Below are positions 23,426 to 54,317 of a stretch of 64,000 nt of DNA, in pieces. The position numbers and the translations under genes are program-made. Position 1 is the stretch's first letter, and each line of letters begins with the position of its first letter. The stretch comes from Saccharopolyspora phatthalungensis (GTDB lineage: Bacteria; Actinomycetota; Actinomycetes; Mycobacteriales; Pseudonocardiaceae), in contig NZ_JACHIW010000002.1 in NCBI RefSeq assembly GCF_014203395.1, positions 1,426,001-1,490,000 of the forward strand. The letters run 5' to 3'. The notes beneath the pieces are model-generated. The model was not told the origin of the DNA and ran no database searches. It saw only the letters and a program-made list of their open reading frames with translations.

Positions 23426-24340
23426 GTGCTGCAGCAAGGAGCCATCCCGACCGATGGAGCAGAGCTCTACTTCGAGGCGCGCGGCGAGGGGCCTCCCGTG
23501 CTCCTCATACAGGGCGGCGTAAGCGAGGCCGGCGCAACCGAACAGCTGGCCGACGCATTGGCCCGGCGTTATCAGGTGATCACTTACGACCGGCGCGGCC
23601 TGTCCCGCAGCACCGTCTCGACCGACGTCCCGATCACGATGGCACGTCATGCCGACGATGCGGGAGCCCTGTTGGCCGCGGTCGCGACACAGCCGGCACG
23701 GGTGGTAGGGGTCAGCATCGGTGCGCTGATCGGGCTGCATCTGGTCGTGCAGCACCCCGACCGCGTGGATGTGCTTGTTGCGCATGAACCACCGATGTCC
23801 GCGGTGGTGCCGGACGGCGTCCAGGAAGAGGCACTGGATACCGTTGCCGCGCTTGCACGTAAAGACGTGTGGGCAGCGATCCGGCATATGGTCGCACTGA
23901 CCAATGGCGAGGGCTCTAGGGAAGAAGGAGCCCGGTCGCCGGATCCGATTGGCGACCTCGGCGCGAACCTGCACCGCTTTTTCGGTTACGACTTCCCCGC
24001 AGTACGAAGTTCGACGCTGGACTCCGCCGGCCTCGCCGGAGTGCCGGAATCGACGGCAATCATCCCGACCGGCGGCGCGGAGTCACGCGGACAATGGGAG
24101 TACCGCTGCGCCAGCACACTCGCGCATCAGCTCGGCCGCGAGCTCGTCGAAATGCCCGGCGGGCACAACGGTCTGGTCAGCCACCCGCAAGCAACCGCGG
24201 CCGCGCTGATGCGCCTGTTCTCGGAGCCCACCCACGAGAATTTTCTGTCGGACCTCGTCGTTCGGGGCGTTCTTGAGAATCCTACAAGCGGGTCCCATCG
24301 GTCTGACGGTAAACCTGGACACAGTGAGTCAATCGGCTGA
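23426..24340 (+). CDS. Alpha/beta hydrolase
   Basis: 304 residues. VLLIQGGVSEAG (oxyanion region), ITYDRRGLSRS, the nucleophile elbow GVSIGALIGLH and the catalytic His in MPGGHNGLVSHPQ are visible. About 35 residues at the end (after LFSEPTHE) look like read-through and overlap the 3' end of the convergent WXG-like gene, so the natural stop may have been lost. Substrate unknown. Confidence 0.85.
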   Translation: MLQQGAIPTDGAELYFEARGEGPPVLLIQGGVSEAGATEQLADALARRYQVITYDRRGLSRSTVSTDVPITMARHADDAGALLAAVATQPARVVGVSIGALIGLHLVVQHPDRVDVLVAHEPPMSAVVPDGVQEEALDTVAALARKDVWAAIRHMVALTNGEGSREEGARSPDPIGDLGANLHRFFGYDFPAVRSSTLDSAGLAGVPESTAIIPTGGAESRGQWEYRCASTLAHQLGRELVEMPGGHNGLVSHPQATAAALMRLFSEPTHENFLSDLVVRGVLENPTSGSHRSDGKPGHSESIG

Positions 24341-24554
24341 CGATCTCGCGTCCGTCTTCGGTCAGGTTGACAACTCCTTGGTCCCAGCGAGAACAGAAGT
24401 CGGCCACGGTGTCGGCAAGACGCTCATGCCCGAACGCATCCGAAGGGCAGTCGATGTCGCTGACTCGCATCGTCCGCATCGACTCGATGGTCGTGTTCAC
24501 GCCCTCCGACGCTTGAGTCAAAGCGGTTAAGTCGACGCGAAACCCGTCCGTCAT
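24282..24554 (-). CDS. Small WXG100/EspC-like ESX-associated protein
   Basis: 90 residues, all helical, with no signal peptide: FRVDLTALTQASEGVNTTIESM, then DIDCPSDAFGHERLADTV and FCSRWDQGVVNLTEDGREIVSRL. The AFGHERL and RWDQGV blocks resemble EspC/WXG100-type type VII secretion partners, with W in place of the WXG turn. Its ATG abuts the end of the giant gene: in the frame one base over, the giant gene would end at a TGA overlapping this ATG. Co-transcription and a role as export partner are likely. Confidence 0.65.
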   Translation of the reverse strand: MTDGFRVDLTALTQASEGVNTTIESMRTMRVSDIDCPSDAFGHERLADTVADFCSRWDQGVVNLTEDGREIVSRLTHCVQVYRQTDGTRL

Positions 24555-24563
24555 GCGGGTGAC

Positions 24564-27500
24564 TCATCCGGGCCCTGCACCGCCAGGCACCACAGGCAAA
24601 GACGAAACGCTGGCCGCCATCGCCGCGGCCTCCGCCCACGCACCTGTTTCCGACCGGCCATCGCCGTACAACCGGAACGCGACGCGTTGGGCCATTCGGT
24701 CCCACAAGCCTTGCATGGCCATCGCCGAGAGGGTGTCGCCCTGTCTGGGGCGTGGCCACACGCTTGCGAGGATTGTGCTGGCTCGTGCCTGTAGGTCTGC
24801 CGCCCAGTCGGCCGGCAGTGTGCTCAGCGTTCGTTCGGCTTCGTGGAACTGGTCGGTCCAGCGCTGGTGCACGGTGGCGATCTCGGCTTCGGTGACCTCG
24901 GCGGGCTGGGCTGGGCGGGCGGCACTGGACAGGGCTGCCTGGCGTTGCCTGTCGACCGCCGCGACCGCGGCCGCGACTTCTCCGGCACTGTCATAGGCCG
25001 GCAGCGAACCCCGCACATAGCGCGGGACGGTTTCCAGCGGATCATCCGGGTCACGGACCTGCCCGGGCCGCTGCCAGTTCAGCTCGGGTGTCACGTTGCG
25101 CAACCAGAGCAGCGCGGTCTCGGCGCTGGAAGCGTAGTGGTGGTAGCCGTCGTAGACGTAGACGGGTCGGGGTGGGCCACCGGTTCGGCGTAGTCCTTCG
25201 GCGAGTGCTCTGGCGTACCAGTCCGGAAGTCGTGCACCGATGGAGTCCGCCACGATCACCACGGTGCGGTCGATATGCCCACCGGCGTGCTGGAACTGCG
25301 GGGACTGCTGCATGCGAAGGCCCAGTGCAACAGGATCCGGTGAGTCAAGCACACCAGCCGCGTTGCTGACTGTTATTTGTCCGTTCCGTACCTGTACGAA
25401 GACGTACAGGGGGTCCGGGTCGAACTCGTTCATCGCGCGCCGAAGGGTGGGCCCGTACCAGGTGCGCTCCAGCGAACCCCATCCGGTCCATTGTGGCGGG
25501 AGGTCCCGTCCTGCGGGGAAAGCCACGGCGTTGAATGCCGATTCCTCGCTAACGCCGACGCGCAGCGTGTGGGACACCATGTCTTCCCGCGGTGGGAGAG
25601 GCTGCATTCGGTCGGGTGTCAGCAGTCGCAGGCCGGGTTCCACGAGACGCTCGTCTGCCGAGGTGGTGAGCTGGTATGCCCGGATGTTGTGCTCCGCGAT
25701 GTAGACGGGCCGGTCGGCGTCGGGGGTGCCCAGTAGTCCGGTTATGAAGTCGGTGAAATCCTGCGTCCTTGCGTTGGGGTCGTTCGGTCCTCCTACGGGG
25801 ACGATCACGACCGGTCGCCGCCAGTCCCCCCGGATCGCCTCAAGATATTCCGGGTTTTCCGCCAGTTCAGCGCCCGCACGCGCCGGGGGCAGGTTCCGTC
25901 TCCTGCCGGGGGCGATGAAGTCCTCGTCGTGTCTGCTCGTGAGGATGACAATCGGTTGCTGGGTGCCGCCATACTCCAGCTGCGACAACAGCCGCGAAAT
26001 CCCGAACGAACGAAGCTGGGCAGAAACCTCCTCGTGGCGACTGCCCAGAGCGGAGATGAGCAGCGGCCGCGCCGCATCGGTAGCGCTGGCTGGGTTGGTG
26101 AGCAGTGCCGATTGTGCCGAAGGTGCTTCGATCAGGGCGTAGGGCCGTGGTCCGGTCTCGTGGTTCTGGATCTGGCCCAACGACAGGAAAACGGGCCGCT
26201 GGATGCCGTCGCCGCGCAATCCCTCGGCCAGTGCGCGCGCATCTTGTTCGGTCAGGCCGGAGGGCCACTGGTTGAGCATCACCACGACCGGGCGGGCCGG
26301 ATCGTCGCTGACGGCCTGCTGGAACTCCGCACTCCTGGCCACGCTCGTGCCGAAGTCCGACGGGCCGAGGATTCTTGTCTGTTCGGTCGAGGGGTCCAGC
26401 ACGTGAAAACGTCCGCCCGCCGACCGGGCCATGACGACCAGTGGCCTGCGGTGGCCGGTTTGCGAGGCGAACCAGCGGGTGTCCACTGTGGGCATCAGAA
26501 CTGGTCCTAGCGGGGAGGGATAGGCCAGCACCACCGCGGAGTCGTCGGCGGGCCGACTCGGTCCGGCCCACGGGGACCAGTTCGGCGGTGGCACGAACCT
26601 CAGGAGACCGGCGTCAAGGGGGAGCACGGCCATGTCGTTTTCGCGTCGCAACCGGAAGTCCCGGTCGGTAACCAGGACCGTGCGGCCCGGGTCGGTACCG
26701 CGCACGCCCCAGGCGAAGTCATGCGCGGCGTGCTCACCAAGCCCGGTCTCGGCTCCCACCGCCGCCAACACCACCGGAGCATCCGGATGCCGAGTGATCG
26801 AGGCCTGATACGGCGCGCTGCCCGCTAGCCGGCGGCCGAACTCGAACGCGGACAGGGTGCCCGACGGCGTGACAAACTCGCCGCCCCGCAACCGCGCGAG
26901 CACCACCGTCGTCGAACCCGGCCCGAACCGTTCCGCATCGCCGACCCGGACACCATTCTCCGACCACCGGCTCCACCAGTCCGCATCCACCGAGGTGCCA
27001 CCGGCCGCCAGCACACGACGCCCCGGATCCGCGGACGTCATCTCCCGTACCGGCAGGTAAGAGTCGCTCGGATCGGTGCCGCGCGAACGTCCTTCGAAGG
27101 GGGTGATGTGCCGGATCTCGAAGCGGATGTCGCCGCCGTCATCGCGTTGTACAACGGCGGCAACATAAACCGGCCCGTCGTGGCCATAGTGGCGTAGCCC
27201 GTTTGCGAGTTCCTGAGGGCCTTGCGCTCCCATAACAGGAGTCCAGTCATTCGGCTCCACCGCGAACACGACGACGGGCCTGCTCGGATCCGAGGCGTAT
27301 GCCTCGCGCAATTCTCCAGCCACGATCCGGCCGAGTTCCCTAGGCAACAGGTTGCTGGACGTCCCGGTTTCGGGGTCGACGGAGACGAAGAACGACGGTC
27401 GGCTCGCCAACACGAGGATCGGTGATCCATCACGCACCGGTGCCGGCAGCCCGGCCAGGTCAGGCCCCGACTCGACCCACCGCCGCCAAGCCGCCGCCTG

Positions 27501-30500
27501 ATTGTAGTCGCGCGGAAAGGCCACCGCGTCGATCACGCCCGAACCCGCCGGAACCGTCAGCCACACTCGCGGCGACCACGGGGCCGTGGTGGGGCCGTGA
27601 ATAGGACTCTGCCGTGCGGTCCCGCGAATCTGCCCGCGACTCCGGAAGCTCGGGGGCGCGCCCGAGGGCAACACCAGCCCCGGCGCGTCCCGGCGGGCAC
27701 CGGGCCGAGAACCCGCAGCGACCAGCCCGAGCCCGGCGGGAGCGTGCGAGATATAGCCCTCCGCAAGAAGAACCTGCCGGACACTTTCCCCGCTCGCGGT
27801 GAGTCCCTCGGCGAATCGTCGAGCGAGGACGTCGTGACTCAGGTGGAGTCCGGCGGTGCCGCCCAGAACCACCAGCACAACCGGGCCGTCCGGGTTGGTG
27901 GCGGCGACCCGCTGGTACTGCTCGGTATCGGCCACCCGCTGACCCAGCTCGCCCGCCGTCTCCACCTGCACGCTCGTACCGCGAACCTCATCACCGATCA
28001 GGAACGATCTGTCCGCAGTTCTGGTCAGCCGCCTGGCCTCCACCACGACCATGACCGGCTCCCGGTCACCGGCGACGCCCAGCTCACCCCGCACCTGACC
28101 CAGATCCACCCCGTCACCCCGGAAAGCCCGCCACCACCGCGCCGAGACCTCATCAACCGGATACACCACGGTGTTCTCGACCGAACCCCCCATCGCCACG
28201 GTCACTATCCGGGTGGCCTGCCGCCGCCACTGCGCCCGCACCTCCTCCACCGTCGCCGGCCGCTGCTCACCGGCATGTTCCAACCGCTGTTGCACCCGCC
28301 GCACCACATCGGCCAAGAACGGCACGTCCTGCCGGCGAGCGTCCGTGGTGCCACCCGTCAGCTCCTGCACCACACGATGCACATCCGCGGCAAACACGGC
28401 CGGCCCCCGCATCGCACCGGTGTCCCGGATCCAGTCGGCTACCAGCCGGACATCCCGCACATCCTCGACGACAGGCCGCCCGCCCACCCTCTCGGTCAGC
28501 ATGAGCGCATGAACAAGCCTGCCCCGCAACCGATCCGCACTCCGCGTCCCCGGCTCACCCACGCCATCCCGGTAACGCAGGTCCACCGCGTCAGCCAGCC
28601 TGCGCACATCCTCATCGGACAACACCCGCCCGGCAGCCGCCGCAGGATCCTCACTCGCGGCCCACCATCCCCGCAACATCTCACCGAGCGGCCGCCTGAT
28701 CTCCTCAAGCCGCGCCGCGCCCCATTCGCTGTCTTGGCCGAACCTCGCGCCCAACGCCTCTGCGGTGTGGGGCTCGCCGGCGTCCCGGGCCCGCCGAGCC
28801 TCCGCTCGCGCCTCCGCCCGCTCCCGCAGTCCGGGCTGTATCACGGCGTCCTCGCCCCCGACCTCGGCAAGCAGCCGACGAGCCCGCATGGCGGATACCC
28901 CGAACCTCTGCCCCAACCCGGCTGCGGTGTAGGGCTCACCCGCATCACGAGCCCGCCGCGCCTCCTCCCGCGCCTGCTGCCGTGTCGACTGTTCCTGCTC
29001 CCGCATACGTCGCCGAGCCGGCCCCGGCTGCTCCTGAGCCTGTTGCTGCGAACCGGGCCGGGTCGCAGCATCCTCATACCGGATCTCGGCAAGCTGGGCC
29101 CGACCCCACATGGCGGACCGTCCGAACCTCTGCCCCAAGCCCGCACCGGTGTAGGGCTCGCCCGCGTCGCGAGCCCGCCGCGCCTCCGCTCGCGCCTCCT
29201 CCCGAGCCGCCCGCTGCGCCTCCGCTCGTCCCTGCGGGGAGGTGGCTGGTTGTGTCTGCTGTGCTTGCGGGGTGAGGGGAGGTGTGAGGTTTTCGTTCCT
29301 GATCTCGGAAAGCAGCCTCGCACCCCACATCCGGCCTCGTCCGAACCTCTGTCCCAAGCTCTCAGCGGTGTAGGGCTCGCCCGCGTCAAGGGCCCGCCGC
29401 GCCTCCTCCCGCGCCTCCCTATCGCGTTGCACGAAAGCATCCAACGCTCTGGCCCGCCGCGCCTCCTCCCGCGCCTCCTCCCGCACCTCCCCCGACGCCT
29501 GCTCCCGCGCCCGGTGTGCCTCGGCTCGCGCCTGCTCCCGCGCCCGGTTCGCCTCCGCTCGCGTCTGCTCCCACACCTGCTGCACCTCCGCTTGTTGTTC
29601 TTGTCCCTGCGGGGAGATACCTGGTTGTGTCTGCTGCGCTTGCAGGATGAGGGGCGGCGTAAGGTCTTCGTTCCTTATCTCGGCAAGGCGATCAGCGCCC
29701 CATCTCCGCCTCTGGTCGAACCTTGTTGCCAGTGCGTTGGCGTTGTAGGGCTCGCCGGCCGCCCGAGCGCGGCGGGCTTCTTCTCGTGCTGTTTCTCGTA
29801 GTTGGTGCTCCTGCGGGGAGATACCTGTTCGTGTCTGCTGCTCTTGCGGGGCGAGGTGGGGGGTGAGGCTTTCGTTTCTGATCTCGGCTAGTCGCTCGGC
29901 GCCCCACTGACGATCCCGGCTGAATCGTTCTCCTAGGCCATGAGCGGTGTAGGGCATGCCGCGCGTGAGCGCGTCTCGTGCGGTCGCTCGCGCCTGCTCC
30001 CGCAACGTCTCCTCTTGTTGCTGCTCCGGCATCTCCAATGCACTCGGCCGAGCCTGCGGCGCCTGTTCCTGTTCCTGCTCCGGACCGTGCTGGGGCGCAG
30101 CATCCGCCTGCATCTCCTCGTCGCGTTCTTCGTGGAGCCTGGCGAGGTCAGCATCGCTGTTGTCCGACCACCTGATCACCGGTTCGGGACTGGTTTGGTC
30201 GGTGTAGTGCGGTGGGGTTGAGCCGGTTAGTGCGGCGCGTAGTTCTGGGCCGCGTGTGAGTACTGGTTGTCCGTCGGGGCCGAGCAGTGTCCATTGGCCG
30301 GTTCCGTGGCCATTGGTGAACATCGGCTGCATTCGCCCGTCGGCGGTGGTGATGGTGTCGGTGGCGTGTACCGCACCATCGTGGGTTTGCCATACGGCGC
30401 TGGCGTCGGTTGCCCACACGTAGGAGCGCAGGTTCGTGGCGAATCGTTGTGCGAAGGATGTGTTGCCAGGCCCGGGTTGTTGTCCGGCGCCGCAACCGAA

Positions 30501-33500: not shown

Positions 33501-36500
33501 TTCTCCGGCGAGAGTGACGTCCCCGATCTCATACCGGATGTTGCCGCCGTCGTGGTTTGTCACGGCGTTAGCGACATAAACCGGTCCGTCGTGGCCGTAG
33601 CGGCCTAGCCCGCTGGCGAGTTGCTGGCGCGCATGCTCGCTCAGGGCAAGCCCGCCAATGGGCTGCACCGCGAGCACGATGACGGCCCTGCTGGGATCTG
33701 AGGTCGCTATCTCGCCCACTGCTGCGGCGACTTCGCGGCCGAATGCTCCGGCGCTGAGGGGTTCGACTCGCCTGCGCAGGGTTGTGGGGTTGATGTCGGC
33801 GAAAGTTCCATCCGGATCCGGGCGCGTCAGCACGAGGACCGGTGATTCATCACGCACCTCTGCGGGCAGCCAGTCCAGGTCCGGGCCCGATTCCGCCCAC
33901 CATGTCCAGACGGCCGACTCATCTCTGCTGCGCGGATATGCGATCGCGTCGAGCACGCGTGAACCCGCCCGTATCGCCAGCCGCACTCGCGGCGACCACA
34001 GATCCACCACAGCGGGGATTAAACGTTGCGCCGCACTGTCCCATTCCATCGCGTAAATCCGCCCGCGATGTCCCGCCTCGCCGAAACTTTCGGCCAGCTC
34101 CCCCTGGGCCCCGTCGGGCAGCGTGCGCTGACTCTCCCCGTCGTATACGTGGACGATGATTGAGCGGTCGTCGTATGGTCTGGTGATCCCGTGGTAGCGG
34201 GCGTCCTCGACCGCCCGGCGAGCGAACTCGCGTGGGCTCACGTGCTGTGTTTCCCACGTGTCCCGGTCAGCGAGGATGAATTCGCCTCGCGGTGTGGTAT
34301 GTGCCAGCACGAACATCGGGGCATCAGCGCGAGCAGTCTGCGGTGTCGAATCCGAGTCGTACTGCCGCTGGAGGGCATCCCTGTCGGCGGCGTCAACGGG
34401 ATAGGCGATCGTGTTCTGCGCTCTGGAACCCTGCCGTAGCGTCAGCACGCTGGCTCGCATGCCCGAGCGCAGCACCGGCCCCGGCACGTCCCGCCGGTCA
34501 CCAGGCCGTGGGCCTGCGGCGATCAACCCGAGTCCGGCGGGATCGTGTGCGACATAGCCTTCGGCCAGCAGGACTTGTCGGCTGCCGTCTCCGCCGACGT
34601 TGAGTCCCTCGGCGAATCCCCGGGTGAGTTCGTCGCGGCCGAGGTGCACGCCGAGTGCCGCGTTGCCGCCCGTGACCACCAGGACGACCGGGCCGTGGTG
34701 ATTGTTTGCGGCGACATGCTGGTACTGCTCGGTGCCGGCCACCCACTGACCGAGTTCCCGCGGGGTCTCCAAGTGCGCGGTCGTACCGCGGACCGTATCG
34801 CTGATCAGGAAGGATTTTTCCGCGCCGATCGGGTTCCGCCGTCGGGCTTCGACCACGACGATGAGCGGCTCCTGGCCCGCGATGATCCCCATTTCCCGCC
34901 GGACCTGGTCCAGGTCCACCCGGCCGCCGTGGAAGTCGCGCCACCATCGCGTTGACGCCGTACTGGCGGGGTAGGCCACGGTGTTTTCGGTGTGAGTGCC
35001 CATCCGCAGGGTCACGGCCTGGGTGGCTCCGTGCCGCCAGTGCGTGCGCAGTTCGGACACCGTCGCCCGCCGCTGCTCGCCTCGCTGTTCCAAACCTTGC
35101 TCTACCCGCCGCACAACGCCAGCCAGATAGCGCAGTTCGTGCGGGCGAGCGTTCGTGGTGGTTTCGGTCAGCTCCTGCACGAGGTGGTGCACGTCGGCGG
35201 TCGTGACCGTCGGCCCTGGTATCCGGACGGTGTCCCGGATCAAGTCGGCCACCAGCCGGACATCCCGCACGTCGGCGATACTCGGTTGCCCGCCCAGGTT
35301 CTGGGCCAGCTCAAGGACGTGGACCAGCCTGCCCCGCAACCGGTCCGCACTGCGTGTGCCGGGTCCGCCCACGCCGTCGCGGTACCGCAGTTCCACCGCA
35401 TCGGCCAGCCTGCGCACGTCCTCATCGGACAACCGCCGTCCAGCAGACGACCCATCATCCTCACGCGCGGCCCACCACCCACTCAACAGCTCATCGAGCG
35501 ACTGCCGGATCTCGTCAAGCCGCGCCGCGCCCCATTCGCTGTCCTGGCCGAATTTCGCCCCCAACGCCTCAGGTGTGTAGGGCTCGTCGGCGTCGCGGGC
35601 CCGCCGTGCCTCCGCCCGCGCCTCCGCCCGCGTCTCCCGCTCCCGTACCAACTCCTCCCGCATTTCGGTAAGCCGCGCCGCGCCCCATTGACGGTTCTGT
35701 TGGAATCTCGCACCCAATTCCCTAGCGGTGTAGAGCTCACGCGCCTCATAAGCCCGCCGCGCCTCCGCCCGCGCCTGCGCCTGCTGGGGCTCGTCCCGCA
35801 TTTCGGCAATCCGCGCCGCGCCCCATTCGCTGTCCCGGCCGAACCTCGCCCCCAACGCCTCAGGTGTGTAGGGCTGTCCGGCCTCCTCAGCCTCCCGCGC
35901 CGCCGCCCGCGCCGCCGCCTGCTGCGGCTCGCCCCGCATGTCGGCAAGCCGCGCCGCGCCCCATCCGCGGTCCTGGCCGAACCTGGCCCCCAATGCCTGA
36001 GCGGTCAGGGGTTCGCCGGCGTCCTCGGCCTCCCGCGCCATTTCCTGCGCTAGCCGATTCATCTCCCGCTGCTCCCACTGCTCCCGCTCCTCCCGCTCCT
36101 CCCACATTGCAGCGAACCTCTGTTCCGCCAATTCCTCAGCGGTGTAGTGCTGACCGGCTGCCGCAACCGCCCACTCCAGCGCGAGCTCCCCCTCCCGCGC
36201 CTCCGTCATTTCGGCAATCCGCGCCTCGACCCATCCGCGGTTCCGCCCGAACATCGTCGAGAAGTCATCAAGGTCGAGAGGGTCGCCGGCCTCCTCAGCC
36301 TCCCGCGCCACCCTCCGCGCTTCTTGCTGTAACTCCAGCTCCTCCGTCATATCGTCAAGCTGCTGTTCGCCCCAGTCGCCGTCTAGTACGAACAGCGCCC
36401 CCAACTCCTCAGGGGTAAAGGGCTCGCCTGCCACGTAAGCCCGCCGCGCTATCTCATACGCCTCCTCTTCGGGTTCGGGTTCGGTGTAATCTCCGTCGGA

Positions 36501-39500
36501 GAGGCTGGCGAGGTCGTGATCTCTGTCGTCGAGGCTGGCGAGGTCGGCATTGTCGTTGTCCGACCACACGATCAACGGCTCGGGAGTGTGGTCGGTGTAG
36601 CGCGGTGGGGTCATGCCGGTCAGCGCGGCCCACAGTTCCGGGCCGCGTGTGTCCACTTGCTGCCCGTCGGGGTCCAGCAGTGACCAGTGACCGGTTCCCT
36701 GGCCGTAGGGGAACATCGGCAGCAATCTTCCGTCTTGGGTCACCGCTGTCTCGGTGGCGTGCACCCTGCCGTCCGCAGTCTGCAGCACCTCGGTATCGGC
36801 CGCCCAGGCCCACCCGCCCAGCGCGCGGATGAACCGCTCGGCAAAGGACAACGCGCCCGGGTCGCGCCGCCGGTAAGCGGCACAGCCCAGCAGTGCGATG
36901 GTCGGTCCCAGCACGAAACGCCGATCCCGCTGCACCCGCATGGCGAAGTCTTCCGGCTGGAGAACGCTGCCATCCCCCAGGACCGCATACCCGTCCCCGG
37001 TCACGTGTACGCCCACGATCTGGGTGTCGGGCAGGTCGGGTGCCGACCACGCGGCACGCTCGATCAGGTCGCTGGAATCGCGGGGTCCCCGGAACAGCAA
37101 CGGTTCCAGCCTGGGCCGGCGGGTCAGTTCGGCGGGCGGATCGACCGGCCGGGGCCGATTTCCGCCCGCCCGGTGGAGCAACCAGCTGGGTCCCGCACCG
37201 AGGTCGAGCCGTGCCAGCACGTCCGCCCCGGTGCCGCTCGCCCAGGCAACGGCATCAGCGGATAGGAGCGTCTCGTTGTGTCCGAGCACCAGCAGCGGCC
37301 GAGCGTCTGGCGGGGCGGCGGCGGCTTGATACGGCGACCGGGTCCAGCCGGTGTAGTCGGCACGTTCCTGCGCTCCTTCCACCGGCAGGCTCACCGCCGT
37401 GGTGGGCACCGCATCCGCACCGGCCGACCGCACCACGTCCTGAGTCCCGGGCCCGCTCGTCATCACACGCCACCAGCGCGCCGACGCCACCGCATCCGCC
37501 GAACTCGCCGCAACAGCAGCAGGCACCGCCCTATGTCCCGCAACAGCACCCACCTCCGGCTCGATGGCCACCGCATCATTCGCCGACTCAGCGGCTACCC
37601 GCTGCGCCCTGCCAGTCGCAGCCACATCCGCAGACGGGAAACTCTCCCCCGCCACGCCATCCCCAGCACCCGAGGCATCCCCCGTTGAACCACCGCGCCC
37701 ATCCCCGATCTCCGCAAGCCGCGCCCGACCCCACGTTTCGCTCTTCCCGAACCTCGCTCCCAACGTCGGACCGGAATAGGGCTCACCGGCATCACGAGCC
37801 CGCCGGGCCTCCGCCCGCTGCTTCTCCTGCACGCTCTGCTGGTCCACATCCCTGATCTCCGCAAGCCGCGCCTGGCCCCACGGTTCACTCCTCCCGAACC
37901 TCTCACCCAACGCCAGAGCGGAATAAGGCTCGCCAGCCTCACGAGCTCGCCGCGCCTCCACCCGCGCCGCCTCCCGCTCCCGCTCCCGCTCTCGCACACT
38001 CGGCTGATGCACATCCCTGATCTCCGCGAGCCGGCCCCGACCCCAACTCGCGCTCTTGCCGAACCTGGCCCCCAATGTCGAACCGGAGTAAGGCTCACCG
38101 GCATCACGAGCCCGCCGCGCCTCCACCCGCGCCGCCTCCCGCTCCCGCTCCCGCTCTCGCACACTTGGCTGATGCACATCCCTGATCTCCGCAAGCCGCT
38201 CCCGACCCCAACTCGCGCTCTTGCCGAACCTCGCCCCTAATATCGAACCGGAGTAAGGCTCACCGGCATCACGAGCCCGCCGCGCCTCCACCCGCGCCAA
38301 CTCCCGCTCCCAGTCCGGCACAGGCGACCCGGGCGCACCACCCTCATCCCCGATCTCCGCAAGCCGCTCCTGACCCCACCTTTCACTCTTCCCGAACTTC
38401 GCCCCCAAGGCCGCACCGGAATAGGGCTCGCCTGCATCACGAGCCCGCCGCGCCTCCGCCCGCGCCGCCTCCCGCACCTGATCCTGCTCGTGCGCACTCG
38501 GCCGGGGCACATCCCTGATCTCCGCAAGCCGCTCCCGACCCCACGTATCACTCCTCCCGAACTTCGCCCCCAAGGCCGCACCGGAATAGGGCTCGCCTGC
38601 ATCACGAGCCCGCCGCGCCTCCGCCCGCGCCGCCTCCCGCACCTGATCCTGCTCGTGCGCACTCGGCCGGGGCACATCCCTGATCTCCGCAAGCCGCTCC
38701 CGACCCCACGTATCACTCCTCCCGAACTTCTCACCCAACGCCGCACCGGAATAGGGCTCGCCTGCATCACGAGCCCGCCGCGCCTCCACCCGCGCCGCCT
38801 CCCGCACCTGATCCCGCTCCCAGTCCCGCACAAGCGACCCGGGAGCACCACCCTCGTCCCCGACCTCTGCAAGCCGCTCCCCACCCCAAAATGCGCTCTG
38901 CTCGAACCTCTCACCCAACATCGAACGGGAATAAGACTGACCGGCATCACGAACCCACGGCTGCTCCACCCACGCCTGCTCCCGGGCCCGGTCTCGCACA
39001 CGCGGCCCAGGCGCACCACCCTCATCCCCGACCTCTGCAAGCCGCTCCGGACCCCAAGTTGCGCTCTGCTCGAATCTCTCACCCAACACGGAACCGGCGT
39101 AAATCTCACCGGCATCACCAACCCACCGCTGCTCCACCCACGCCTGCTCCTGCGGCAGCGTCGCATCATCCTTGATTTCCGCAAGCCGCGCACAGCCCCA
39201 CCTATCACTCTTGCCGAACTTCTGCCCTAACACCGCGCCGGAGTAAGGCTCACCGGCATCACGAGCCCGCCGCGCCTCCACCCGCGCCGCCTCCCGCACC
39301 TGCTCCCGCTCTTGCACACCCGGCTGGGGCACATCCCTAATCTCCGCAAGCCGCGCCCAACCCCACCTCTCGCTCTTGCCGAACCTCTCCCCCAACGCCG
39401 CGCCGGAGTAAGGCTCACCGGCATCACGAGACCGACGCGCCTCCACCCGCGCCGCCTCCCGCAGCTGCTCCCGGCCCCGATCCCGCACACGCGGCTGGGG

Positions 39501-42500
39501 AGCACCACCCTCATCCCTGATCTCCGCAAGCCGCGCCCGACCCCACCTTTCACTCTTGCCGAACCTCTGCCCCAACGCCGCGCCGGAGTAAGGCTCACCG
39601 GTATCACGAGCCCGCCGCGCCTCCACCCGCGCCGCCTCCCGCACCTGCTCCCGCTCTTGCACACCCGGCTGGGGCACATCCCTAATCTCCGCAAGCCGCG
39701 CCCGACCCCACCTTTCACTCTTCCCGAACTTCTGCCCCAACACCGCAGCGGAGTAAGGCTCGCCGGCGTCACGAGCCCGCCGCGCTTCCGCCAGCGCCGC
39801 CTCCCGCACCTGCTCCCACTCCGGCTTCTGGTGCGCACCAACCTCATCCCTGATGTCCGCGGGCTGCGCCACGCCCACCTGGCCGCTCTGCCCCCACCTT
39901 TCCCCCAACACCGCACCGGTGGAGGATTCGCCGGCAGCAGGAGCCCGCCATGCCGCCCACCCAGCTGCCTCTCCCGTCTGCTCCGCTCCTCGCTGCCAGT
40001 GCAGTTCCCGGCTCGACTGCTCCGCGTTACCGGCCGCCTGACCGGACCCGGCGGGCCTGTGCGCGGCGCCGTCATCGACCGCATCATCGGAAAGGCCGCG
40101 CTTGCGGCCTCTTGCATCGACCGAACCCCTCGAAACCCCAGCCGCCACAGTCCCCTCACGGTCGGCCGACTCCATCCCGACCGGGACACCCGGTTGCCGG
40201 TCCGGTCCCGCTCCGGCGCGAATGGCCAGCCCCGTTCCCTCGGTAGCGAGTTTGGCCGCAAGATCTCGGGAAAACCGCTTCGCCACGGCAGGGCCGAATT
40301 CAGTCACCCGGGCCGCGACCAGCGCCACCACGTCCTCCAGCGACACACCCGCCCGGCCCCGGGCCAGCCGCACCACGTCCTGGGTGCCCTGCACGATCCG
40401 CATCGCCGCCGGGCGCGGCCCGTCCACCGCCTTCGCCCGCTCGACCTCCCGGAGAAGGTCCGAGACCGTCCAGTCAGCCACACTCGCCGACTCCGGCCGG
40501 TCCGGGGCATGCCCGCTCGTGTCCTGCCCCGAGAAAGCCGTGCCGGTCGCGGTGGCCTCGGCAGCTGGCACCCTCTCGGCCTGCCCGGTTGAACCCGTCT
40601 GTGCCGCGCTTGTCGGGACGGCGGTCGAGGAATCGGCAAAGGCATCCGGTACGTCGCGCCCTTGGCCGGTCTGCACTGGCGCCTCGATCCGTCCCGGACC
40701 GCCCACCGGGCGGGGGCGTGCCCCATCGGCACCGAACCGCATCCACCGCGCATCGCGTTGACCACGCCCCGGCACCAGCGCAACGACATCGCGCCCCAGG
40801 CTCCGCGCCACCTCCGCAGCCTGTGCCGGCGAGACCACCGCACCCGAGTCGGCCCCGTCTCCCGAGGCAAACACCACCGGACCCGTCCCCGCAACCCGGG
40901 CACGCACGAACTCGGCAACTCCACCTGTGGAGACCGCATCCGTCGGCACCGGCACTCGCACCGCATCCGCGGGCAACCCCACCGGCCCCGCACCCGGCAC
41001 ACCGCCACCCGAGGACATCACGCCCGAGGACGGCGGCGATACCGGCGATTGCGGCGCATTCCCCGCAACCGAACCCGTTCCCACCGACACACCGGGAGCG
41101 GTCGCCTCGCCCCGCGCGGGCCCCTGGCCCGGCAATACCACCGCGCCGTCGGCGGCTAAAGCCCCGGCCACAGGAGAAGTCGTCTCCGGCACCATGCCGC
41201 CGGAAGACACACCGGGCGCATCGGGGGAGCCCGTCAAGTTGGTGTCCACCGGTGAGCCTGGCTCGCCCGTCCGCACCCTCTCCACCACGGCATTCTGTCC
41301 GTCCACACCAGACAGACCAGTACCGGCGCGGTCCTCGCGCAACGGCGAACCGACACCCGAATCCCCCACCGTCACACCACCATCGGAGACCACCGGAACA
41401 CCCGAACCGGGCGAACCCGGCCCCGCAACGGGAGGCCCCACCGGCGCACCCGGACTGCCCGCATCAGACGAACCGGTAGAGCCCAGCGGGTCCATATCGT
41501 TCACGTGAGACTGACTGGGCGTGCTATGGCCGTCATACTGCGGCGCATCGGCACGGACATCCCCGGCCGTCACCCCGTCGGCAGAGACCGGCGGGCCGCC
41601 CTGGTTCAACGGCCCCGGAGCCGACCACTCCGAATACCCGACCGAACCACCGTCGCTGTCCACATTAGATTTCCCTGATGCGGCGTGGACGGCGTCGGCT
41701 GGCGGGCTGTAGGCAGGCGGCGGCGTGCCAGTACGGGTGCCGCCCAGCCCAGTCGCATCGCCGGTACCCAGTGCGTCGCTGCGGACCTGGTCATCGCCCG
41801 GAGACGGCCGGTAGGGCGGCGGCGGAGTGCCCGGCCTGCCCTGGCCCGACAACCCATCCGGAGCCGCCGCATCGCCCGCATATCGCGGCACCGGCGAGAT
41901 GAGCTCCGGCGTCTCGCGCACACCGGTCGTGGAGCCCGCACCCACCACACCACCGGTACCCACGCGGCCCGGTCCGCCAGACGGGGCAATCCCAATATCC
42001 GATACCGAGGTCTGCTGAGCCAGGCTGCCCGGCCCCGCGCCCGCAGACGAAGACAGACTTGCCGCATTCTCCCTGGCCACCGCGCCGTTTCCGGCTCCCG
42101 CCGCACCGGAGGAATCACCCGGCGGCGTTTTCCCGGGAGCGGAACTGGCGGACAGAACAGCCGAGGCGACCGCAACACCCGGCCCCACCGAGCCCTTCTC
42201 CAGGTCAGCGGCCACCTTTTCAGAACCCGGCGCCAGCACACCGGAATCCACATCGGACATGCTCTTCGAGAAGCCCGGCTTCTCGCTGAAAGTCTCCGCA
42301 AAACCAGGCTTCTCACCCGCTTGCTCGGCCTGCAACTCCTCAGTCGTACCCGTGCCGGTGTCGGTGCCGGCGGAATCCTTCTCCCCGCCCGTGTCCTCCC
42401 GGGCCCGGCCCGCCGGGATCAGCTCGCCCCGCACCGCCAGGCCCGCCAGATTCCCGATACCCGAACCGATCGCCTCCGACACCCCGGCGGTAAACGAGAA

Positions 42501-43451
42501 CGGATTCCACTGCGCCCCCTGACCACTGATCGCGCCATACCCCGCCTCGCCCAGCATTTCGGTCAGGCCCTCTTCCAGGGACTCGCCCAAGCCGTGACCG
42601 AACCGGGCCACCCACATCGCCCGCACCGACATACCCGTGCAATCGTCCAGGTTCTTGGAGACCACATCGGCGAATTTCGCCATCGACGCCACCGGATACT
42701 GCTCCGCATGCTCCTCAGCCACCTGCCTCGCCGCCGCCGCCAACACCTCAACATCGATCTTGTCACCCAAACCCCGCACCAACACCTTGCTGATCGCATT
42801 ACCCACCACATTGCCCAACGCCGACAACGGCACCGCCAGCAACCCACTAAACGACCCCACCCCCACCGCCATCTCCGACATCGCCGCATCCCACTTCTCC
42901 CGCGTCCCCAACGCAAACTGCAACCCCTGCGCCCCGGCATCCATCACCACCTGCAACCCCACCCCCACCACCTGGCTCATCGCCAAACGCATGAACAACT
43001 GACCCCACCACCGAGTCAGCAACAACCGCATCACCGCAAACCGCGCCGCCAACCACGCCATACTCGCCCCACCAGTAGGCCCCGCCATCGCCACCGCCCA
43101 CGCCACCTCCGCCAACAACAGCAACAACCCACCCACCGTCACAAACTTCAAATACTGCACCTGCACCGCCAGATTCCGCACAAACCCCGCCAACTCCCGC
43201 AAACCCACACCACCCGACTCCAACACCGGACCAAACGCCCCCAACCGCTGCGCGAACCGATCCGCCGCCTTCCCCGAAAACCCACCCCGCACCCGCCCCA
43301 CCACCTCCCCCACCACCGGACCCAACACCTCCACCATCGCCGCACCCGACTCCAACGCCGCCGCCACCGCGAACAACGCATCCTCATCCGCATCCGTCAT
43401 ATCCTCACCGGTCAAAACCTGAAAAAGCCGCCTCACCTCCTCCGGCACCAT
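24564..43451 (-). CDS. Giant WXG100-like, HTH-repeat, protease-like multidomain protein (about 6,295 aa)
   Basis: An uninterrupted frame. Residues 1-390: helical WXG100-like/CpnT-N-type region starting MVPEEVRRLFQVLTGED, with hydrophobic stretches. Residues 390-1165: disordered Gly/Pro/Ser/Thr-rich. Residues 1170-1915: 13-14 HTH-like repeats. Residues 2030-2280: protease-like domain (His about 2149 in GVHVTGDG, Cys about 2190 in LLGCAA). Residues 2330-2650: second repeat array. Residues 2660-4150: helical segment and seven modules of about 130 residues ending in RPVYV-like strands. Residues 4155-6295: a second, diverged copy of protease-like domain (His 4280, Cys 4320), repeat array and modules, ending part-way. 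The ATG at 43451 is favoured because a promoter lies at 43515-43544 and family members begin this way. Probable ESX substrate with autoprocessing; function unknown. It resembles giant 'lonely Cys' proteins of actinomycetes. Confidence 0.8.
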   Translation of the reverse strand: MVPEEVRRLFQVLTGEDMTDADEDALFAVAAALESGAAMVEVLGPVVGEVVGRVRGGFSGKAADRFAQRLGAFGPVLESGGVGLRELAGFVRNLAVQVQYLKFVTVGGLLLLLAEVAWAVAMAGPTGGASMAWLAARFAVMRLLLTRWWGQLFMRLAMSQVVGVGLQVVMDAGAQGLQFALGTREKWDAAMSEMAVGVGSFSGLLAVPLSALGNVVGNAISKVLVRGLGDKIDVEVLAAAARQVAEEHAEQYPVASMAKFADVVSKNLDDCTGMSVRAMWVARFGHGLGESLEEGLTEMLGEAGYGAISGQGAQWNPFSFTAGVSEAIGSGIGNLAGLAVRGELIPAGRAREDTGGEKDSAGTDTGTGTTEELQAEQAGEKPGFAETFSEKPGFSKSMSDVDSGVLAPGSEKVAADLEKGSVGPGVAVASAVLSASSAPGKTPPGDSSGAAGAGNGAVARENAASLSSSAGAGPGSLAQQTSVSDIGIAPSGGPGRVGTGGVVGAGSTTGVRETPELISPVPRYAGDAAAPDGLSGQGRPGTPPPPYRPSPGDDQVRSDALGTGDATGLGGTRTGTPPPAYSPPADAVHAASGKSNVDSDGGSVGYSEWSAPGPLNQGGPPVSADGVTAGDVRADAPQYDGHSTPSQSHVNDMDPLGSTGSSDAGSPGAPVGPPVAGPGSPGSGVPVVSDGGVTVGDSGVGSPLREDRAGTGLSGVDGQNAVVERVRTGEPGSPVDTNLTGSPDAPGVSSGGMVPETTSPVAGALAADGAVVLPGQGPARGEATAPGVSVGTGSVAGNAPQSPVSPPSSGVMSSGGGVPGAGPVGLPADAVRVPVPTDAVSTGGVAEFVRARVAGTGPVVFASGDGADSGAVVSPAQAAEVARSLGRDVVALVPGRGQRDARWMRFGADGARPRPVGGPGRIEAPVQTGQGRDVPDAFADSSTAVPTSAAQTGSTGQAERVPAAEATATGTAFSGQDTSGHAPDRPESASVADWTVSDLLREVERAKAVDGPRPAAMRIVQGTQDVVRLARGRAGVSLEDVVALVAARVTEFGPAVAKRFSRDLAAKLATEGTGLAIRAGAGPDRQPGVPVGMESADREGTVAAGVSRGSVDARGRKRGLSDDAVDDGAAHRPAGSGQAAGNAEQSSRELHWQRGAEQTGEAAGWAAWRAPAAGESSTGAVLGERWGQSGQVGVAQPADIRDEVGAHQKPEWEQVREAALAEARRARDAGEPYSAAVLGQKFGKSERWGRARLAEIRDVPQPGVQEREQVREAARVEARRARDTGEPYSGAALGQRFGKSERWGRARLAEIRDEGGAPQPRVRDRGREQLREAARVEARRSRDAGEPYSGAALGERFGKSERWGWARLAEIRDVPQPGVQEREQVREAARVEARRARDAGEPYSGAVLGQKFGKSDRWGCARLAEIKDDATLPQEQAWVEQRWVGDAGEIYAGSVLGERFEQSATWGPERLAEVGDEGGAPGPRVRDRAREQAWVEQPWVRDAGQSYSRSMLGERFEQSAFWGGERLAEVGDEGGAPGSLVRDWERDQVREAARVEARRARDAGEPYSGAALGEKFGRSDTWGRERLAEIRDVPRPSAHEQDQVREAARAEARRARDAGEPYSGAALGAKFGRSDTWGRERLAEIRDVPRPSAHEQDQVREAARAEARRARDAGEPYSGAALGAKFGKSERWGQERLAEIGDEGGAPGSPVPDWERELARVEARRARDAGEPYSGSILGARFGKSASWGRERLAEIRDVHQPSVREREREREAARVEARRARDAGEPYSGSTLGARFGKSASWGRGRLAEIRDVHQPSVREREREREAARVEARRAREAGEPYSALALGERFGRSEPWGQARLAEIRDVDQQSVQEKQRAEARRARDAGEPYSGPTLGARFGKSETWGRARLAEIGDGRGGSTGDASGAGDGVAGESFPSADVAATGRAQRVAAESANDAVAIEPEVGAVAGHRAVPAAVAASSADAVASARWWRVMTSGPGTQDVVRSAGADAVPTTAVSLPVEGAQERADYTGWTRSPYQAAAAPPDARPLLVLGHNETLLSADAVAWASGTGADVLARLDLGAGPSWLLHRAGGNRPRPVDPPAELTRRPRLEPLLFRGPRDSSDLIERAAWSAPDLPDTQIVGVHVTGDGYAVLGDGSVLQPEDFAMRVQRDRRFVLGPTIALLGCAAYRRRDPGALSFAERFIRALGGWAWAADTEVLQTADGRVHATETAVTQDGRLLPMFPYGQGTGHWSLLDPDGQQVDTRGPELWAALTGMTPPRYTDHTPEPLIVWSDNDNADLASLDDRDHDLASLSDGDYTEPEPEEEAYEIARRAYVAGEPFTPEELGALFVLDGDWGEQQLDDMTEELELQQEARRVAREAEEAGDPLDLDDFSTMFGRNRGWVEARIAEMTEAREGELALEWAVAAAGQHYTAEELAEQRFAAMWEEREEREQWEQREMNRLAQEMAREAEDAGEPLTAQALGARFGQDRGWGAARLADMRGEPQQAAARAAAREAEEAGQPYTPEALGARFGRDSEWGAARIAEMRDEPQQAQARAEARRAYEARELYTARELGARFQQNRQWGAARLTEMREELVRERETRAEARAEARRARDADEPYTPEALGAKFGQDSEWGAARLDEIRQSLDELLSGWWAAREDDGSSAGRRLSDEDVRRLADAVELRYRDGVGGPGTRSADRLRGRLVHVLELAQNLGGQPSIADVRDVRLVADLIRDTVRIPGPTVTTADVHHLVQELTETTTNARPHELRYLAGVVRRVEQGLEQRGEQRRATVSELRTHWRHGATQAVTLRMGTHTENTVAYPASTASTRWWRDFHGGRVDLDQVRREMGIIAGQEPLIVVVEARRRNPIGAEKSFLISDTVRGTTAHLETPRELGQWVAGTEQYQHVAANNHHGPVVLVVTGGNAALGVHLGRDELTRGFAEGLNVGGDGSRQVLLAEGYVAHDPAGLGLIAAGPRPGDRRDVPGPVLRSGMRASVLTLRQGSRAQNTIAYPVDAADRDALQRQYDSDSTPQTARADAPMFVLAHTTPRGEFILADRDTWETQHVSPREFARRAVEDARYHGITRPYDDRSIIVHVYDGESQRTLPDGAQGELAESFGEAGHRGRIYAMEWDSAAQRLIPAVVDLWSPRVRLAIRAGSRVLDAIAYPRSRDESAVWTWWAESGPDLDWLPAEVRDESPVLVLTRPDPDGTFADINPTTLRRRVEPLSAGAFGREVAAAVGEIATSDPSRAVIVLAVQPIGGLALSEHARQQLASGLGRYGHDGPVYVANAVTNHDGGNIRYEIGDVTLAGERPRDAGMPVRELASDPSHRLLAAGGTPADVDWWRQWSSFGFRPVGHYWLGLNSATTVLARLWDNEFVTPSGTLSAFEFGRQVAGSGPYQTSITALPDAQVLLATVGAETGLSEHAAHEFARGVWSNDPDRIILVTDQDFRLQSNEDSNAELYLGEDFPRLVPPQHWSPVAGSSRPAADDVAAVLTYPASPTPAPPFVVDTDWFVAEAGHRSPAVVVARSMRGRFHVMDPLTTKIRVLGPSDFGTIVARSAEFRQAVRDDPARPVVVVFDRWPSGLTEQDARSLAETLRGEDIQRPVFLSMGQFQNHETGSRPYALVEAPSAQSAVLTHPASAADAPRPLLISALGGRHEEIFHQLRSFGVSRLLSELGYRGAQPPIVILASRQGDHFIRPGGRLSLAHYADLGSNLAENPNYLEATRGDWRRPVVIVPVGGPRDSDARTDELAGFLSGLLGTPDADRPVYIAENNVRTDRLITPTSGGRLVESGLRLLTPDRLQLPAPQESLVSHTLRVGVGQESAANAVAFPAESDLPPQWTGWGSVERSWYGPMLHRAISEFDPDPLFVFVRVRNGQIAVVTDCDGSLAFVEPDPVGLGTRMQHSPQFQRAGGHSGRTVVIVADSEDYVPIPDWYARALAEGLRRVGGPPRPVYVYDGYHHAAFHTDAVLDRLRNVTPELNWQRPEGLQDPDDPLEAVPRYERDSPPNYDNAGEVASAIATVDRQREIALSGTARPAQPTEATEAEIATVHQRWNEHFQEAERALSALSADRVADLQARASTILASMWPRPRQGDTASAMAMQDLWDRMAQRVALRLYGDGRSETGAWAEAAAMAASAPSLPVVLAVRGSDESITYPAWTRSPGFAEVSADRGQLLVVLGSDRMVVPDESVTETRRSGTDVLARTDTGIGPQWMLYRADGTGPLPIEPPAELTRLTSPAPLMYFGPEDDAVALEAAALASDIPGVQVVGIHITPHGHARWPDGEAGPEESAQRVWHDRRFVAGLPVALFGCGAGQQPGPGNTSFAQRFATNLRSYVWATDASAVWQTHDGAVHATDTITTADGRMQPMFTNGHGTGQWTLLGPDGQPVLTRGPELRAALTGSTPPHYTDQTSPEPVIRWSDNSDADLARLHEERDEEMQADAAPQHGPEQEQEQAPQARPSALEMPEQQQEETLREQARATARDALTRGMPYTAHGLGERFSRDRQWGAERLAEIRNESLTPHLAPQEQQTRTGISPQEHQLRETAREEARRARAAGEPYNANALATRFDQRRRWGADRLAEIRNEDLTPPLILQAQQTQPGISPQGQEQQAEVQQVWEQTRAEANRAREQARAEAHRAREQASGEVREEAREEARRARALDAFVQRDREAREEARRALDAGEPYTAESLGQRFGRGRMWGARLLSEIRNENLTPPLTPQAQQTQPATSPQGRAEAQRAAREEARAEARRARDAGEPYTGAGLGQRFGRSAMWGRAQLAEIRYEDAATRPGSQQQAQEQPGPARRRMREQEQSTRQQAREEARRARDAGEPYTAAGLGQRFGVSAMRARRLLAEVGGEDAVIQPGLRERAEARAEARRARDAGEPHTAEALGARFGQDSEWGAARLEEIRRPLGEMLRGWWAASEDPAAAAGRVLSDEDVRRLADAVDLRYRDGVGEPGTRSADRLRGRLVHALMLTERVGGRPVVEDVRDVRLVADWIRDTGAMRGPAVFAADVHRVVQELTGGTTDARRQDVPFLADVVRRVQQRLEHAGEQRPATVEEVRAQWRRQATRIVTVAMGGSVENTVVYPVDEVSARWWRAFRGDGVDLGQVRGELGVAGDREPVMVVVEARRLTRTADRSFLIGDEVRGTSVQVETAGELGQRVADTEQYQRVAATNPDGPVVLVVLGGTAGLHLSHDVLARRFAEGLTASGESVRQVLLAEGYISHAPAGLGLVAAGSRPGARRDAPGLVLPSGAPPSFRSRGQIRGTARQSPIHGPTTAPWSPRVWLTVPAGSGVIDAVAFPRDYNQAAAWRRWVESGPDLAGLPAPVRDGSPILVLASRPSFFVSVDPETGTSSNLLPRELGRIVAGELREAYASDPSRPVVVFAVEPNDWTPVMGAQGPQELANGLRHYGHDGPVYVAAVVQRDDGGDIRFEIRHITPFEGRSRGTDPSDSYLPVREMTSADPGRRVLAAGGTSVDADWWSRWSENGVRVGDAERFGPGSTTVVLARLRGGEFVTPSGTLSAFEFGRRLAGSAPYQASITRHPDAPVVLAAVGAETGLGEHAAHDFAWGVRGTDPGRTVLVTDRDFRLRRENDMAVLPLDAGLLRFVPPPNWSPWAGPSRPADDSAVVLAYPSPLGPVLMPTVDTRWFASQTGHRRPLVVMARSAGGRFHVLDPSTEQTRILGPSDFGTSVARSAEFQQAVSDDPARPVVVMLNQWPSGLTEQDARALAEGLRGDGIQRPVFLSLGQIQNHETGPRPYALIEAPSAQSALLTNPASATDAARPLLISALGSRHEEVSAQLRSFGISRLLSQLEYGGTQQPIVILTSRHDEDFIAPGRRRNLPPARAGAELAENPEYLEAIRGDWRRPVVIVPVGGPNDPNARTQDFTDFITGLLGTPDADRPVYIAEHNIRAYQLTTSADERLVEPGLRLLTPDRMQPLPPREDMVSHTLRVGVSEESAFNAVAFPAGRDLPPQWTGWGSLERTWYGPTLRRAMNEFDPDPLYVFVQVRNGQITVSNAAGVLDSPDPVALGLRMQQSPQFQHAGGHIDRTVVIVADSIGARLPDWYARALAEGLRRTGGPPRPVYVYDGYHHYASSAETALLWLRNVTPELNWQRPGQVRDPDDPLETVPRYVRGSLPAYDSAGEVAAAVAAVDRQRQAALSSAARPAQPAEVTEAEIATVHQRWTDQFHEAERTLSTLPADWAADLQARASTILASVWPRPRQGDTLSAMAMQGLWDRMAQRVAFRLYGDGRSETGAWAEAAAMAASVSSLPVVPGGAGPG
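28690..30010 (-). repeat. HTH-like repeat array 3 (6 units)
   Basis: Units such as DAGEPYTAESLGQRFGRG followed by RMWGARLLSEIRN, separated by longer Gln-rich linkers (TPPLTPQAQQTQPATSPQG repeated with changes). The last unit (GARFGQDSEWGAARLEEIR) is nearly identical to the last unit of array 2, confirming that array 3 is the duplicate of array 2 at its 3' end while upstream units have diverged. Confidence 0.75.
35500..36460 (-). repeat. HTH-like repeat array 2 (6-7 units)
   Basis: Units such as DAGEPLTAQALGARFGQD followed by RGWGAARLADMR, and EAGQPYTPEALGARFGRD followed by SEWGAARIAEM. The first three are degenerate (FVLDGDWGEQQLDDM, FGRNRGWVEARIAEM, AEELAEQRFAAMW). The Q-D-x-x-WGAA version differs consistently from array 1 (K-S-x-x-WGRA), so the arrays have evolved separately. 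Confidence 0.75.
37705..39945 (-). repeat. HTH-like repeat array 1 (13-14 units)
   Basis: Units of about 40-55 residues share DAGEPYSGAALGxRFGKS followed by xxWGRxRLAEIRD, joined by charged EREQVREAARVEARRAR linkers. The core resembles a helix-turn-helix: helix, turn at FGKS, recognition helix WGRARLAEI. Residues just after FG(K/R)S vary most (ERWGRA, DTWGRE, ASWGRE, ATWGPE), the positions expected to touch DNA or a partner. The first unit (GESSTGAVLGERWGQS) is degenerate. Confidence 0.8.
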
Positions 43452-43514
43452 CAAGGACACGAAAAGACACCCACTCTGCGCACAGCGGACTACACCAACA
43501 CGATCATTGCGCCG

Positions 43515-43544
43515 ATAGTATGAACCAGCCATACACCGCTGCAA
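43515..43544 (-). promoter_or_regulatory. Candidate promoter of the giant gene
   Basis: On the minus strand TTGCAG (43544-43539) and TACTAT (43520-43515) are separated by 18 bases, a good vegetative-type match in this G+C-rich DNA. A transcript from here would begin around 43,508, leaving the ATG at 43451 as the first sensible start. Confidence 0.45.
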
Positions 43545-53434: not shown

Positions 53435-53547
53435 TAATGTCCACTCATTTGGAGCATAGACCGCGGCGTGGTTCATGGGATGTGATAGATCAGCAGGCAT
53501 AATCCGCATCGCCTTCGGACGCGATGCAGTGACGACAGGAGAGACCG

Positions 53548-54284: not shown

Positions 54285-54317
54285 ACCCGCACAGAGATCG
54301 TGAACGACTGAGGACGC

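Follow-up and report, generated by a model that had tools for sequence, protein, structure and literature searches.

Giant proteins of Saccharopolyspora phatthalungensis carry arrays of predicted helix-turn-helix units with accelerated change at four positions

Results

Layout of the giant gene g15

The window analysed here is a 64,000-nucleotide stretch of the Saccharopolyspora phatthalungensis genome (assembly GCF_014203395.1, contig NZ_JACHIW010000002.1, positions 1,426,001 to 1,490,000), and our subject is the giant gene on its reverse strand, g15, together with the paralogues of that gene elsewhere in the genome. The g15 frame, 24564..43544 (-), stays open over 6,326 codons with zero internal stops; alignment with the paralogues places the start at GTG 43460 or ATG 43451, giving a product of about 6,300 amino acids (aa). 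A preliminary description of this DNA had proposed one uninterrupted gene of roughly 6,300 codons with a WXG100-like, ESX-type N-terminus, a long linker, about 26 helix-turn-helix (HTH)-like units and two domains in which a His is followed some 40 residues later by a Cys, and our analysis bore out each of these elements. Units were counted with a hidden Markov model (HMM): 26 exceed 8 bits, 25 of them scoring at least 24.9 bits and the first 18.4. The layout is as follows.

24564..43460 (-): giant gene g15; open frame, start taken from paralogues
43032..43448 (-): WXG100_2 (PF25547) N-terminal domain, residues 33-171; Pfam, 34.6 bits against a cut-off of 27
Down to 42429 (-), about residue 372: N-terminal region common to 39 giants; 62-100% identity over about 340 aa
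39975..42407 (-): low-complexity linker, about residues 380-1190; read off the translation
37695..39965 (-): HTH array 1, 14 units, residues 1194-1950; HMM, and an AlphaFold2 model of three units; the first unit is the weak one
36561..37409 (-): His/Cys domain LC1, residues 2046-2328, with H2180 and C2221, 41 residues apart; homology and His/Cys columns
35496..36461 (-): HTH array 2, 6 units, residues 2362-2683; HMM
31530..35021 (-): seven modules (M1-M7) resembling a cysteine protease domain (CPD) and lacking the Cys, residues 2842-4005; mutual homology, Cys missing at the equivalent place, and fold
30165..31013 (-): His/Cys domain LC2, residues 4178-4460, with H4311 and C4351, 40 residues apart; homology and His/Cys columns
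28686..29993 (-): HTH array 3, 6 units, residues 4518-4953; HMM
25125..28223 (-): second-copy CPD-like modules, six in all with M2 absent, residues 5108-6140; mutual homology
24282..24554 (-): 90-aa open reading frame (ORF) directly after g15, in the same frame; no Pfam family

The second half of g15 is an internal duplication of a block made of a His/Cys domain, an HTH array and modules, the two copies sharing 65% identity in a 992-column alignment and 37% in one of 1,852 columns. A third His/Cys domain was not found in the 2.5 kb past the g15 stop, and searches of g15 against NCBIfam (E 0.1) and PADLOC (E 0.01) returned zero matches, PADLOC thereby naming no known defence protein. The 90-aa ORF begins about 10 bases past the g15 stop; a small gene does follow directly, as the preliminary description had stated, but its label of EspC/WXG-like is unconfirmed, since the ORF has no Pfam match.

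Thirty-nine giants share the g15 N-terminus

The 8.54 Mb genome, assembled in six contigs, contains 52 matches to PF25547, 50 of them above cut-off. We took in the 41 matches with open frames longer than 1,100 codons and left out 11 shorter ones. Thirty-nine of the 41 share their first ~340 residues at a mean identity of 80% (range 62-100%). These giants measure 1,141 to 13,644 aa each and sum to 162,580 aa, or 5.7% of the genome, and the HMM finds 623 HTH units in 33 of them. Since 39 paralogues share the N-terminus and 33 of these have the HTH repeat, the architecture of g15 is not a product of chance. Five giants, the shortest included (g01, g14, g25, g27 and g38; L023, L043, L057, L059 and L071), run off contig ends, so the family may be larger, or its members longer, than counted here. 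Outside the 39 giants, two short open frames contain HTH units as well (G000:C1:4322346-4322843 and G000:C6:298-417; 392 and 319 aa), the second at a contig end. The remaining two proteins, g40 and g41 (L073, L074), are WXG100_2 proteins of other architecture that look toxin-like by eye.

Paralogues that share the N-terminus differ in their C-termini. Eight giant ends were scanned with Pfam: g26 carries a Scabin-like ADP-ribosyltransferase at its end (31.7 bits, cut-off 27), the end of g36 is an α/β-hydrolase and that of g35 matches DUF5053, both above cut-off, and the other five gave nothing above cut-off. A 1,092-aa protein of S. spinosa has a related N-terminus (55% identity) and, by eye, an end like that of g26; Pfam calls neither WXG100_2 nor a Scabin-like domain in it. 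A profile of the shared N-terminus (1e-10) matched 69 of 249 genomes of the bacterial family, the present one counted. The genome has two copies each of EccB and EccD and thus two ESX loci, and g27 starts less than 6 kb from the first EccB.

Predicted fold of the repeat unit

Units recur at a spacing of about 56 or 60 residues and carry a net charge of +2.5 each; their conserved residues include E4, R6 and R7 of helix 1. In an AlphaFold2 model of three units of array 1 (mean predicted local distance difference test, pLDDT, 69), the unit folds as helix, helix, 4-residue turn and helix, and the predicted template-modelling score (pTM) of 0.30 leaves the shape of the array unfixed. Among the structural matches listed, those of the unit were mostly nucleic-acid-binding proteins. 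At the sequence level, Sigma70_r4 matched 2 of 61 units (best E 3.5e-4) and a longer piece reached 17.7 bits, below the cut-off of 24.1; a search of PDB sequences with the unit returned nothing convincing. We regard the units as predicted HTHs that are predicted to grip DNA. The closest single-copy sequence relatives of the unit are the C-terminal HTHs of DUF2637 (PF10935) proteins, of which four were read and one (L082) was checked with Pfam. Ntox38 was considered as the identity of the HTH repeat and rejected, being described as all-β in the available portion of PMC3482391; a toxin named 'Tox-HTH' is also listed there and was left out of the comparison.

Four positions of the unit change fast

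Column entropy across the units peaked at positions 18, 28, 29, 32, 33 and 40, and L20, F24, W30, G31, R34, L35 and E37 had low values. To separate replacement from silent change we used 114 close pairs, some overlapping, among 491 ungapped units. The ratio of nonsynonymous to synonymous change (pN/pS) was 2.39, 2.76, 2.43 and 1.94 at positions 28, 29, 32 and 33, respectively; the overall value was 0.64, and W30 and R34 scored 0. Because the pairs overlap, the count was repeated with each unit used once. In these 50 disjoint pairs, nonsynonymous and synonymous codon changes numbered 76 and 7 at the four positions versus 177 and 132 elsewhere (Fisher p 5e-10). Difference cut-offs of 8, 12, 20 and 25 left the sign unchanged (at 8, p 0.02 with 15 pairs), and single-base codon changes alone gave 48 and 7 versus 129 and 127. 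With 96 pairs of at most 20 differences, an equal number of replacements was reached by 30 of 91,390 four-position sets. When whole periods, linkers included, were compared in 27 disjoint pairs, replacements at the four positions ran at 3.05 times the rate of the linker (bootstrap 1.97-4.80). These data firmly establish accelerated change at positions 28, 29, 32 and 33; formal positive selection there is not settled.

In the model, the four positions fall where the recognition helix begins, within its first turns. In LacI and similar repressors, helix positions 1, 2, 5 and 6 make the base contacts, and by analogy residues 28, 29, 32 and 33 would face DNA. They are occupied mainly by K, R, E, Q, S, T and A, with W, L or Y at position 32 in 107 of 491 units. 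The four-residue codes are highly varied (430 distinct codes in 491 units, against 349 for the control set 18/19/22/36 and 160 for 9/10/13/23), and adjacent units carry identical codes in 11 of 332 cases. Nearest unit pairs lie inside one protein in 94 of 143 cases. A diversity-generating reverse transcriptase was set aside as a source of the variation; codons at the four positions use more than one base type. The genome contains 14 RVT_1 matches (L127-L134, G000:C2:1535197-1535841), several of them clustered and one adjoining the giant g30.

His/Cys domains and their relatives

The His and Cys columns of LC1 and LC2 are invariant across 12 aligned copies. The Cys is present in 37 of 38 copies having that column, and some copies in G033, a genome of another genus, lack the His at its usual place. 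The 13 modules of g15 are α/β units that are mutually homologous and more weakly related to the His/Cys domains (hhalign 5-80%); of the 15 copies in g15, His/Cys domains and modules together, 13 lack a Cys at the equivalent place. The preliminary description had recognised these modules and called them Rossmann-like. The modules stand, but a Rossmann fold was rejected, as the best PDB match of a modelled module is the MARTX cysteine protease domain; the fold was assigned from the model of one module, and the His/Cys domains are tied in by kinship. Given this match and kinship, the modules resemble copies of a releasing peptidase that have lost activity. Sequence searches with the His/Cys domain gave no significant match to MARTX (E 0.68) and nothing convincing in the PDB or Pfam. 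As a named family, 'lonely Cys' has no NCBIfam match, and the term was not found in the literature searched.

Arrays in other genomes and changes in unit number

At E 1e-3 the unit profile matched 12 of 22 genomes of the genus, the present one counted; six of the other 11 (G001, G004, G007, G008, G018 and G020) have one or more unit matches within an open frame longer than 4,500 aa, and the arrays of the five that were read in part are of a diverged type. At 1e-7 the profile matched 16 of the 249 genomes of the bacterial family, again with the present one counted. On a single contig, G033 encodes in one frame an 11,795-aa giant that shares this N-terminus and whose array counts seven units of the present type. 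Six of these units are near-identical and differ by replacements at positions 17, 25, 29, 32, 33, 34 and 39; the seventh is more divergent. Thus arrays recur, and the diversified face was seen only in the present genome and, on few units, in G033. Two other members of the genus have orthologous giants (L113/L114 and L117/L118) in which about 24-26 diverged HTH-like units apiece keep their order between the species.

Two records outside this assembly, P0013 and P0009, are identical to g30 and g24, respectively, on either side of a gap in which one and four whole units are missing. The joints sit within a conserved stretch of the unit; as the contigs are short (1.9 and 17 kb), assembly collapse is possible. 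A short array query gave 7 matches, 4 of them more than 93% identical to a giant over all or part of their length. Searches of 5.8 billion proteins for giants of similar length gave 6 and 4 matches, all seemingly this genome's own, a weak negative given the word pre-filter and length limit, and no relative of the array was found in phages, plasmids or viral contigs. In titles and abstract openings of the literature outside subscription journals and preprints, we found no report of tandem HTH arrays in such proteins; the term 'tandem HTH' occurs in the available part of a BREX paper (PMC12839542).

Other genes in the window

Upstream of g15, two PCMT methyltransferase genes flank an RNase_T-type exonuclease gene (48116-49414, 49560-50489 and 51622-52200, all (-)). 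An S-adenosyl methyltransferase (PF04672) is split across adjacent ORFs at 21422-21847 and 21871-22203 (+), which cover profile parts 7-142 and 157-268. A DUF6879 gene followed by an HTH_31/DUF5753 regulator lies at 53475-55145 (+).

Discussion

We propose, with confidence a little short of an even chance, that the 39 giants are exported conflict proteins of the polymorphic-toxin type, in which a type VII secretion system (T7SS)-type N-terminus is joined, in 33 members, to arrays of predicted HTHs that would bind DNA with an ever-changing preference. More than 600 units in 33 giants, a predicted grip on DNA and fast change at the likely contact positions together suggest that the giants probably form an exported arsenal of DNA-recognition proteins that differ from one another. 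The WXG100_2 N-terminus would guide the protein to an ESX machine, of which the genome has two, the linker would cross the envelope, and each HTH unit would set its recognition helix into DNA. Because replacements concentrate at positions 28, 29, 32 and 33, DNA preference would vary from array to array. New arrays may also form as recombination between repeats adds or removes whole units, as the two near-identical records with fewer units suggest if they do not reflect assembly collapse. From kinship and fold, the two His/Cys domains could cleave the giant into pieces in the style of the MARTX cysteine protease domain, with the 13 modules lacking the Cys serving as inert spacers or decoys. DNA binding, export, cleavage and self-processing are what we infer for the giants; the target might be DNA of rival cells or of phages, or extracellular DNA, and the data favour none of these. 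The preliminary description had tied DNA binding to an HTH in the predicted repeat and export to an ESX core locus in the genome; the modelled unit has a predicted HTH, and the genome has two such loci. The 39-member family, the diversified helix face and the kinship of modules with His/Cys domains were absent from it, lying beyond the view of one window.

Several observations weigh against this proposal. Foldseek gave no match below E 1e-3 for the unit or the module model, and structural-match Z scores were at most 5.1 for units and 6.3 for the module. In the 114 pairs, positions 22, 36, 39, 40 and 42 also have pN/pS above 1 (1.16-1.62), and the single position with most replacements in the 96 pairs is 40, at the edge of the linker. 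Measured against the synonymous rate of their own codons, the four positions reach a pN/pS of just 1.17, because the synonymous count of those codons is raised too. In the diverged arrays of the G001 and G004 giants, orthologous units show unremarkable variability at positions 28 and 29 (28 identical in 13 of 22 units, 29 in 8 of 21; 33 is not covered). HTH units are absent from six of the 39 giants, among them g26, the sole toxin-ended paralogue of the eight scanned. The C-terminal end of g15 has no Pfam or NCBIfam family and no recognised toxin, and the 90-aa ORF, with no Pfam match even at E 10, provides no recognised immunity protein. A cargo of 6,300-13,600 aa would, to our knowledge, be exceptional for ESX.

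One rival reading makes the unit a structural or protein-binding element of a surface protein that is exported, its four variable positions tracking not DNA but a fast-changing protein partner such as an immunity protein, a receptor or a phage. The exported setting implied by the WXG100_2 N-terminus, the low pTM with its unfixed array shape, the weak PDB scores and the frequent W, L or Y at position 32 are all consistent with this. We nevertheless hold it to be rather unlikely, since the variable positions lie on the first turns of the recognition helix and are mainly K, R, E, Q, S, T and A, the units are positively charged, and the listed fold matches are mostly nucleic-acid-binding proteins. 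Alternatively, the giants may be an ordinary polymorphic toxin family, with an N-terminal trafficking domain, repeats acting as a ligand-free spacer and a variable toxin end, so that variation reflects relaxed constraint and repeat slippage. The short S. spinosa protein, the Scabin-like end of g26 on a protein without HTH units, the variable ends, the spread of the N-terminus over 69 genomes and the own-codon ratio argue for such a family. Relaxed constraint fits poorly with four positions that outpace the linker about threefold while W30, G31 and R34 between them are frozen, or with the conservation of helix-1 residues such as E4, R6 and R7, and most ends carry no toxin family (one above cut-off among the eight scanned); we judge this account improbable.

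We give very little weight to the explanation that g15 is an artefact of sequencing or assembly, or a gene in decay that was taken for a single frame. Arrays are evidently hard to assemble, as five contig ends fall inside giants, and the two records that differ by whole units are on short contigs; yet there are 39 paralogous open frames, conserved scaffold residues have low pN/pS, and the G033 giant, on one contig, keeps the shared N-terminus and its seven units within a single frame. Among the options raised by the preliminary description, a polymorphic toxin or conflict system fits best, as paralogue g26 ends in a Scabin-like domain, although g26 itself has no HTH unit.

A bolder form of our proposal, which we think possible but doubtful, is that the giants are an HTH-based bacterial counterpart of TALE and PRDM9: exported proteins whose 623 units have their recognition helices and unit number rewritten by recombination to track DNA targets in rivals, phages or a shared matrix, freed by built-in peptidases with dead copies as chassis. 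If the arrays bind DNA, bacteria would have a natural system in which HTH recognition helices are varied on a common scaffold; its hundreds of variants within one genome might allow an HTH recognition code to be deciphered. DNA recognition would then also have a place within T7SS-type conflict proteins, in which this genome would be investing 5.7% of its length. Even with a non-DNA ligand, the site-specific diversification is a testable arms-race signal.

Comparison with known systems

The MARTX cysteine protease domain belongs to clan CD, family C80. It is alike in being the best fold match of the g15 modules and in the His/Cys pair of the two LC domains, and differs in the missing Cys of 13 of 15 g15 copies and in the lack of a significant sequence match. 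The repeat unit itself has its closest single-copy relative in the C-terminal HTH of DUF2637 proteins, which have a single unit per protein and, unlike the arrays, identical residues at positions 28, 29, 32 and 33 in the four genus proteins read. Tandem HTH units are also found in a CRISPR repeat-binding protein (2lvs) and in Myb-type repeats, both among the VIA structural matches listed; such proteins have two to three units and no diversified repertoire.

As a whole, the giants most resemble the WXG polymorphic toxins of PMC3482391, the available portion of which describes WXG trafficking domains and caspase-like releasing peptidases in polymorphic toxins and, for S. spinosa, nine copies of a different WXG toxin, Ntox38. 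Shared features are the WXG-type N-terminus, a low-complexity linker, a His/Cys releasing-peptidase-like domain, a variable C-terminus and many paralogues per genome. The giants differ by their sizes, up to 13,644 aa, by a g15 locus with no recognised toxin or immunity gene, and by tandem HTH arrays with a diversified face; an HTH array changing fast on its recognition helix is not part of that portion's description of WXG toxins.

The closest logic to that of the g15 arrays would, by analogy, be that of TAL effectors and PRDM9. TAL effectors combine a fixed scaffold of tandem units with variation on DNA-facing residues and gain and loss of units. The zinc-finger arrays of PRDM9, as far as the sources at hand describe them, share all of these traits. 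The g15 family would differ from both in using an HTH fold, in being bacterial and in carrying its arrays, with DNA binding as a prediction, within T7SS-type giants.
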